In this document: in pieces, positions 61,449 to 63,487 of the stretch
How the letters are laid out: each line of letters begins with the position of its first letter
How positions within the stretch are numbered: position 1 is the stretch's first letter
From: Cyanobacteriota bacterium
GTDB lineage: Bacteria; Cyanobacteriota; Cyanobacteriia; CACIAM-69d
Length of the DNA stretch: 64,000 nucleotides
Direction: 5' to 3'
Assembly: GCA_022402445.1 (NCBI GenBank)
Contig: JAKRSF010000011.1
Location: 1-64,000, forward strand
Made by a program: the position numbers and the translations under genes
The notes under the pieces: model-generated
The model's input: only the letters and a program-made list of their open reading frames with translations
What the model was told of the DNA's origin: nothing
Databases searched by the model: none

Positions 61449-63281
61449 TTATGTGAGATTGTCCAGGGTTTCCACCAGGGGCCATACGTCGGCGCGGATC
61501 TGGGCGGCGAGGCCCTGCTTGCGGTGGGTGCGGTTGTAGTAGGTTGGCTGGTCGATGCCGTGGCGGCGGTGGTGATCGTCGATCCAGTCGGCGCGATCGC
61601 GGAGCCATTGGGACACGAGGCTTGGGGCGATGGTGCAGGGCATCAGATCGCGGATGGCGCGCCCATTGATGGCCCATTTGCGATCGCTTTGGTCATTCCA
61701 GGCCATGATCGCCCGGACGCAGCGATCGATGCGGGCTTGGCTGGCGGCGTGGGTGCGCGACAGTTTGTGGTCCCCGAGGCCGAAAAGTTGCCGGTGATCC
61801 TGGGGGCGATCGGCGGCGATCGGGGCCGGGGACGCTTTCGGGGGCGCTGCCGTTGGGGGGGCGGATTTGGGGGCGCTGGCCTCTGGGGTGACGCGATCGG
61901 CGGCGGGGACTAGGGCGGCGATCGCGCGCTGGAGGTCGGTCAACTGCTGGGTGAGGGCGGCGATCGCGGCGGCATTGTGGGCGACCTGCTCCGCGAGGGC
62001 CGTCGTTGCCGCTGCGGGGGCCATGGGCTCAGGCTCAGGCTTGGGTTCAGGCTTGGGTTCAAGGTCCGCCTCGGCGGGGTGATGGGTTTGATAGAACGCC
62101 ACCAGCCGCGCGATCGCCGCCGATTCCTCACACTGCCAAATCTCACATTGCCGCCGCAGCCAGCTATGGTCCGCCGCCGCGATCGCCACCTGCACCGTTG
62201 CCGGTTCCTGCGGCGCGATCGCCCTTGGCTCCGCCGCCGCGATCGGCCAATGGGGCACCGGACCCGCCACCTGATAGTCCGTATAGCCCAGGGTGGTGAG
62301 CAGGTGCAGCAGGTCGCGATCGCTCGGCGTTTCCTCCTCCACAAAATGGCCCAACTGCCGCGCCGCATAGAGCATCGCCTCCCCTGGCGACGCCTCCGGG
62401 CAGTCCCGCTGCACCACCAGCACCGCATAGGCCGCCCGCAGTCCCTGGCAGTTCACCCGCGATCGCGGTCCCGCCTGCCGGGGCGCTAAAACTTCACTAA
62501 AATGATTTCGCACCGCCCGATTAATGGACGCATTGCAGCGGCGATCGACGGCCCCATTATCGTCCCCGCACTCCGCCAGCACCTTGGCCACCGTCGGGGC
62601 CGCCCGCAGCCGCTCCACCGCCGCCACCACCCGCTCCGCCGGAAGCAATGGCGCGATCGTCAGCCGGGGAGTTTGGCCCCGTTTTTTCGCCTGCCCGATG
62701 AACTGGAGGCGATCGCCCCGACTCACTTTAAATTGCCCCCTAGCGATCACTTCCACCGGCCGCCGCCCCGTCGCCGCCACCAGGGCCGCCGCAATTTCAG
62801 ACCAGCGGGTGGCATCCAGCAGCCGATCCGCTACGGTTAGATATTGCAGTGGATCAATGGGATACTTATGGTGCTGGGGTGTGAGTCGATCAAGAACGCG
62901 GGTGGTGCCATTGCGGCGATCCCATTCCTCCGGCGTTAGGCCAATCCACCGCAGGGCGCGATGCTGTAGCTTCGTACCGATGGTCTGACCGGTGGCGTCG
63001 TGGCGATCGACGAGTTCGGCGTTTTTGCCTGCGCTTAGGAGCAGAGTCCGTAGGTTTTTGTAATACCCTGCGCTGCTCAGTTTTGTGCCCAGGGTGTCGA
63101 TGTTGGGATAGGTTTGCCGGAGCCATTGCCCTTCCGGTTGGGCGATCGCGTCGATGGCGTCAAAATCCATCAACGGCGCGATCGCTTCCACAAATAGTCT
63201 GGCGCGGGCCTTGAGGGAGCGGCACTGCTGGGCAGCGGCGTAGGTTTGGCGGGCGATCGCGAGGGATGCATCCGGGCTCAT
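61449..63281 (-). CDS. Telomere-resolvase (protelomerase)-like tyrosine recombinase
   Basis: A 610-residue protein from ATG 63281. The N-terminal half resembles the core/catalytic region of telomere resolvases. Candidate active-site residues are Arg173 in AATGRRPVEVIARGQF, Lys199/200 in GQAKKRG, Arg282 in CQGLRAAYAVL, His312 in RQLGHFVEEE and Tyr333/336 in GYTDYQV, in the order used by tyrosine recombinases. A Lys/Pro/Glu repeat and an Ala-rich coiled segment (about 405-490) lead to a basic C-terminal domain (about 515-610), probably DNA-binding. Protelomerases make hairpin telomeres on linear replicons. The family call rests on motif recognition; a phage or plasmid integrase-type recombinase is the alternative. 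Confidence 0.65.
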   Translation of the reverse strand: MSPDASLAIARQTYAAAQQCRSLKARARLFVEAIAPLMDFDAIDAIAQPEGQWLRQTYPNIDTLGTKLSSAGYYKNLRTLLLSAGKNAELVDRHDATGQTIGTKLQHRALRWIGLTPEEWDRRNGTTRVLDRLTPQHHKYPIDPLQYLTVADRLLDATRWSEIAAALVAATGRRPVEVIARGQFKVSRGDRLQFIGQAKKRGQTPRLTIAPLLPAERVVAAVERLRAAPTVAKVLAECGDDNGAVDRRCNASINRAVRNHFSEVLAPRQAGPRSRVNCQGLRAAYAVLVVQRDCPEASPGEAMLYAARQLGHFVEEETPSDRDLLHLLTTLGYTDYQVAGPVPHWPIAAAEPRAIAPQEPATVQVAIAAADHSWLRRQCEIWQCEESAAIARLVAFYQTHHPAEADLEPKPEPKPEPEPMAPAAATTALAEQVAHNAAAIAALTQQLTDLQRAIAALVPAADRVTPEASAPKSAPPTAAPPKASPAPIAADRPQDHRQLFGLGDHKLSRTHAASQARIDRCVRAIMAWNDQSDRKWAINGRAIRDLMPCTIAPSLVSQWLRDRADWIDDHHRRHGIDQPTYYNRTHRKQGLAAQIRADVWPLVETLDNLT

Positions 63282-63487
63282 GGGTTTGGGGGGCAGGGGG
63301 ACGGGGGCCGCCAACTTCAGCTAACCTACGCAAATTTAAGCAGGTTTGCCAGTCCCTAGGGGAGGCGATCGCGCGATCAATGATCCAAAAAATGGGGCGG
63401 GAATTGGGGATGGCTGACTGGGATTGGGGCCTGCGTCAAGGGGGCTCAGGCTTTGGGGCTACGGTCGGCATCGGATGACGTGCCCTG

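Follow-up and report, generated by a model that had tools for sequence, protein, structure and literature searches.

A gene for a telomere resolvase (protelomerase) lies on the minus strand of the 64,000-nucleotide stretch of DNA analyzed here (the window), at positions 61449 to 63281, and is the only gene of its kind in the genome. By family, the encoded protein is securely assigned to the ResT/TelK type of telomere resolvase. It is reasonably probable that the protein is a competent resolvase of the type carried by cyanobacterial plasmids, that the chromosome took up from a linear plasmid and that acts in trans, on a replicon absent from the assembly.

Family, active site, and domain layout of the protein

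The open reading frame is uninterrupted, and translation from the ATG at 63281 gives a protein of 610 amino acids, while an alternative upstream TTG at 63314 (33 bases before the ATG) would give 621. A sequence-only reading had called the protein protelomerase-like, and Pfam profile, structure, and catalytic residues now agree on this. The only Pfam family matched was PF16684 (ResT-TelK_cat), with an E value of 7e-26 and a score of 91 bits against a curated cutoff of 27 bits. Using phmmer, the protein was found to match TelK (2.8e-6), and a family profile made from the window protein and 47 cyanobacterial relatives (48 sequences) matched TelA (1.7e-12), TelK (1e-11), and ResT (1.5e-6). The same alignment was used for an AlphaFold2 model with a mean pLDDT of 82, in which the N-terminal/catalytic and C-terminal regions are well folded and the linker is mostly disordered. 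Comparison of the model with the PDB, a check against TelK that the earlier reading had proposed, did not return an unrelated fold; the nearest structures were TelA (2.5e-8, over approximately 350 columns), TelK (3.1e-7), and ResT (5.6e-5), and all of the significant matches (ranks 1 to 8) were to one of these three. The best folds among viral models were phage VHML ORF1 and the ResT/TelK protein of Emiliania huxleyi virus 86 (EhV-86).

The general tyrosine-recombinase catalytic fold is held in common with ordinary phage-type tyrosine integrases and Xer recombinases, but XerA, the next PDB match at 0.02, and lambda integrase were far weaker structurally, and ResT/TelK was the sole Pfam family matched. 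As no match to the window protein was present in 50,697 phage records or among viral contigs, it is extremely improbable that the gene encodes such an integrase or recombinase, the outcome that would have counted against the sequence-only reading. A phage origin was also rejected on the basis of these records and contigs, and no phage genes surround the window gene.

The order of motifs recognized from the sequence alone was confirmed, namely TGRRPVEV (R173/R174), QAKKRG (K199), LRAAYA (R282), LGHF (H312), and YTDY (Y333 and Y336). Residues R174, K199, H312, Y333, and Y336 are invariant across the 48 sequences, and R282 is conserved in 46, with either Y333 or Y336 being the predicted nucleophile. 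Position 279 is Gln in the window protein, Lys in 43 of the 48, and Thr in the remaining 4. This residue lies three positions ahead of R282, at the place where the HxxR motif of tyrosine recombinases begins, and in our own alignment it corresponds to Tyr363 of TelA. By analogy with TelA, TelK, and ResT, a dimer of the window protein would bind a palindromic replicated-telomere site, both strands would be cut by the catalytic tyrosine (Y333 or Y336) with the aid of R174, K199, R282, and H312, and each cut strand would then be folded back and resealed to leave a hairpin end.

Four regions of the protein, all encoded on the minus strand, were delineated. The largely helical N-terminal domain (amino acids 1 to 142; 62856 to 63281) is a confident region of the model and is conserved among relatives; by its position it would be the equivalent of the core-binding/hairpin module. 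The catalytic domain (amino acids 142 to 343; 62253 to 62858), defined by a profile match at 62328 to 62858 and by residue conservation, contains R174, K199, Q279, R282, H312, and Y333/Y336. It is followed by a linker (amino acids 344 to 510; 61752 to 62252), recognized from predicted secondary structure and low pLDDT (at residues 408 to 421 and 463 to 503), which consists of a small helical pair, a long helix (amino acids 423 to 462), and disordered Lys/Pro/Glu stretches. The C-terminal helical domain (amino acids 511 to 610; 61452 to 61751) has residues R520, A524, N529, W559, H570, and N583 conserved with relatives. The Lys/Pro/Glu linker and basic C-terminal domain had been considered unusual, a view that did not hold, as full-length cyanobacterial relatives share the same architecture. 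TelN likewise has two C-terminal domains (PMC12624138).

TelA of Agrobacterium tumefaciens, the nearest solved fold, belongs to the same mechanism class, but the window protein is not its equivalog, scoring 18.5 bits with the NCBIfam TelA model against a cutoff of 800; moreover, TelA has Tyr363 where the window protein has Q279 in our alignment, and it maintains a linear chromosome that is known. The window protein matches the catalytic profile of TelK, and a multidomain layout with C-terminal domains is common to it and to TelK/TelN of phages phiKO2/N15. These enzymes are carried by linear plasmid prophages and have known target sites, whereas no target site was found for the window gene, which has no phage genes around it. 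ResT of Borrelia also matches in the catalytic domain, and resT similarly lies away from the majority of its telomeres; however, ResT serves many known linear replicons, and none was found for the window gene in the draft assembly.

Cyanobacterial relatives, their telomeres, and upstream boxes

Using translated searches, relatives of the window gene were identified in 15 cyanobacterial plasmids and at 53 loci in species genomes. Protelomerases of Nostoc, Calothrix, and Fischerella plasmids (WP_114084150.1 of Nostoc pNsp_d and those of Nostoc N6 pNPM8 to pNPM10) share approximately 29 to 34% identity with the window protein over the full length and 36 to 42% over amino acids 15 to 342, with the same N-terminal, catalytic, linker, and C-terminal layout. 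These copies are on plasmids, many of them linear with AAATTAACRGAC ends, and often lie beside a GIY-YIG gene and a gene for a protein of approximately 720 amino acids, with TAACNNGTTA boxes; in contrast, the window gene is on a chromosomal contig, has neither these neighbors nor the boxes, and encodes Q279. Nostoc N6 plasmids pNPM8, pNPM9, and pNPM10 are reported to have covalently closed hairpin ends with AAATTAACRGAC at each end (PMC5987646), and these ends are visible in the plasmid records.

A perfect palindrome, GTTAATTTAAATTAAC, with the core GTTAATTT|AAATTAAC, was present at 10 of the 53 relative loci (10 occurrences in 0.76 Mb, with 0.001 expected by chance), in most cases on or close to a contig end or in the middle of a hairpin that had been assembled through, and two further contigs end within a few bases of the palindrome axis. 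This core agrees with the hairpin ends published for the Nostoc linear plasmids; a cyanobacterial telomere palindrome is GTCYGTTAATTTAAATTAACRGAC. At one Brasilonema locus (L091, position 15017) the core is the variant GGTAATCTAGATTACC. Telomere-like palindromes with other cores, e.g., GGTAATCTAGATTACC, TATGTTAATTAACATA, and TTATGTTATATAACATAA, were also found on protelomerase contigs (L091:15017, L146:3142, L149:3272, L150:18, and L171:11221), suggesting several target specificities among cyanobacteria.

In a quick tree, which contains long branches, the window copy was placed beside copies from Symploca and a Coleofasciculaceae metagenome-assembled genome with an SH-aLRT support of 93. Its own branch is long (1.41), and thus its exact position is unsure. 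In Symploca, the plasmid gene set is still present around the copies.

In 40 of 49 relatives (L063 to L113), one to five TAACNNGTTA boxes occur upstream of the resolvase gene, often approximately 20 bp apart. Their density there is 9.5 per kb, compared with 0.18 per kb elsewhere in the loci, a 53-fold enrichment, and the 10-mer is also present in some subterminal telomere arms. The boxes likely serve in autoregulation or are bound by another plasmid protein. No significant presence of such operator boxes was identified upstream of the window gene, where chance alone would give the best motif score 0.41 times per 300 bp. Before the start codon, at 63320 to 63349, lies an imperfect inverted repeat, GCTAACCTACGCAAATTTAAGCAGGTTTGC, which is a weak candidate for a degenerate operator, without significance; it was rejected as a telomere or operator as its symmetry does not exceed that of shuffled DNA. 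It was the best palindrome candidate there, and the earlier observation that no long palindrome lies beside the gene still holds.

The host genome contains only two TAACNNGTTA sites and many more of a reversed control pattern. Avoidance of the site was rejected as an explanation, as tetranucleotide frequencies alone predict its rarity, and the site is scarce as well in sister genomes that lack the enzyme. One of the two sites is included in a 32-bp near-perfect palindrome, ACAGCAAGGTATAACCGGTTATATCTTGCTGT, which contains TAACCGGTTA, at approximately C1:59781 to 59812 (L115:19781 to 19812), directly after the stop codon of a porin gene; this palindrome is more likely a terminator than a telomere site.

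Chromosomal setting and possible targets of the window gene

The 83.7-kb contig carrying the window gene (C3) looks chromosomal, as it also carries glgA, cobalamin genes (CbiC), and Dus. The window gene is solitary, between Dus and a CRISPR array of 10 repeats (C3:63575 to 64310), beyond which lies a type III-B operon encoding Cas10b, Cmr3, Cmr4, Cmr5, a Cmr6-Cmr1 fusion, and a CARF-HEPN protein; a second array of 23 repeats is located at C3:75561 to 77299. A probable regulator is upstream of the type III-B locus (L021:8575 to 19147). Neighbors conserved on plasmids are not found at the window gene, whose neighbors are Dus and CRISPR, and a search that had no positive control did not recover the plasmid-type protein of approximately 720 amino acids. 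As the neighbors of Dus vary among relatives, synteny did not provide a clean insertion border. The adjoining CRISPR repeats are partly palindromic, yet they were rejected as a telomere, and CRISPR spacers gave only short chance matches to the protelomerase loci examined.

The composition of the window gene is that of its host, with a GC content of 0.66, a GC3 of 0.76, and 13 HIP1 sites, whereas relatives range from 0.38 to 0.49 GC. The gene nevertheless carries no lesion. Its shift to the host composition points to selection without proving it, and no homologue close enough for a dN/dS test was found. None of five genomes from the same family carries the gene. A CyRepA1 replicase (NCBIfam score of 344 bits, cutoff 200) is encoded beside chromosomal genes on host contig C1 (L035:14108 to 17344), a sign that plasmid genes have integrated into the chromosome, which we count in favor of capture from a plasmid.

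The core of the family telomere was absent from the whole host genome with up to three mismatches allowed, although a divergent resolvase could use a different core, and no palindrome with arms longer than 16 bp was present in the approximately 2.4 of 4.08 Mb scanned (approximately 60%, in partly overlapping segments). Nearly all contigs terminate in short repeats that recur at the ends of other contigs, the pattern expected of an assembly interrupted by repeated elements. Two ends do not fit it, namely one of C13, which looks like a 5S rRNA from its sequence, and one of C1, which lies inside an ABC transporter gene. Thus, no linear replicon is visible, and no contig end is telomere-like, in the draft assembly, which as a draft cannot exclude one.

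These results bear on whether the host chromosome, or a large part of it, could itself be linear with hairpin ends kept by the window enzyme. The enzyme is the sole resolvase of the genome, and other cyanobacterial assemblies have perfect palindromes bearing protelomerase genes in chromosome-sized contigs, but a linear host chromosome is very improbable given that the gene is not near a telomere-like end, that the contig ends are repeat-like, 5S rRNA-like, or within the ABC transporter gene, and that the scanned part has no long palindrome.

Alternatively, a linear plasmid could have integrated and left the gene behind as a stranded, decaying remnant, a former resolvase without a target that is drifting to loss. 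The absence of a telomere, of a nearby plasmid module, and of operator boxes is consistent with this, as are the unique Q279, the long branch, and the gene's absence from sister genomes. We regard such a remnant as rather unlikely, however, as the reading frame is full length, the N-terminal, catalytic, and C-terminal domains are present, and the other catalytic residues are intact despite a composition shifted to that of the host.

A comparably small chance, though placed slightly lower, is given to a resolvase repurposed for a chromosomal task, such as handling of hairpins or palindromes, sequence-specific regulation, or action on incoming linear elements beside CRISPR. Such a domesticated enzyme, for which we hold the odds to be equally low, would be retained under selection for the processing of palindromes or hairpins in DNA, or for a role in aiding or attacking linear plasmids that visit the cell, and not for maintaining a linear replicon of its own. 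The gene is chromosomal, solitary, and adjoining CRISPR arrays and the Cmr operon, and a second relative (L079) is also among chromosome-like genes; however, the neighbors of L079 differ and no genomic partner is conserved, PADLOC has no defense role for the resolvase, and the adjacency to CRISPR may be due to chance.

Capture from a plasmid followed by action in trans is the explanation we favor. The chromosome probably acquired the gene from a linear plasmid, and the gene would have been resident long enough for its composition to match the genome while remaining intact. Most likely, the resolvase remains active in trans, its substrate being a linear plasmid that is absent from the assembly or only sometimes present. 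Separation of the gene from its target has parallels in Borrelia, where resT on the circular plasmid cp26 serves linear replicons (PMC4379921), and in host-integrated telN, which aids the establishment of linear plasmids (PMC12624138). Against this explanation stand the missing target, Q279, operator boxes that are not significant, the long branch, and the absence of the gene from the five family genomes. Sequence alone cannot separate a trans-acting resolvase, a decaying remnant, and a repurposed enzyme, and a chromosomal copy with no visible target poses a testable question, namely, an unseen linear plasmid versus a new role.

Wider occurrence in cyanobacteria

Most work on telomere resolvases concerns Borrelia, Agrobacterium, and a small number of phages. 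Matches to PF16684 were identified in 98 of 390 sampled cyanobacterial genomes of the same class (approximately a quarter), suggesting that the domain is far more common than the few described systems imply. As telomere palindromes are recognizable in many of them, cyanobacteria seem to be a rich source of hairpin-ended DNA that has received little study.

Two large palindromes were identified in other genomes. The single 4.68-Mb contig of genome G023 contains a perfect palindrome of 6,159 bp (C1:2110111 to 2116269; L164:6112 to 12270) with one gene for an 876-amino-acid protelomerase per arm, flanked by ordinary chromosomal genes and located roughly opposite the contig start. This palindrome resembles the two hairpin-telomere ends of a linear chromosome joined by the assembler, the alternative being a real inverted duplication. 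In genome G117, a perfect palindrome with arms longer than 8 kb, the center TATAGAATTCTATA, and a protelomerase copy in each arm is present at approximately 916523 of the 1.5-Mb contig C1 (center at L166:10523), probably reflecting assembly through the hairpin end of a large linear replicon.
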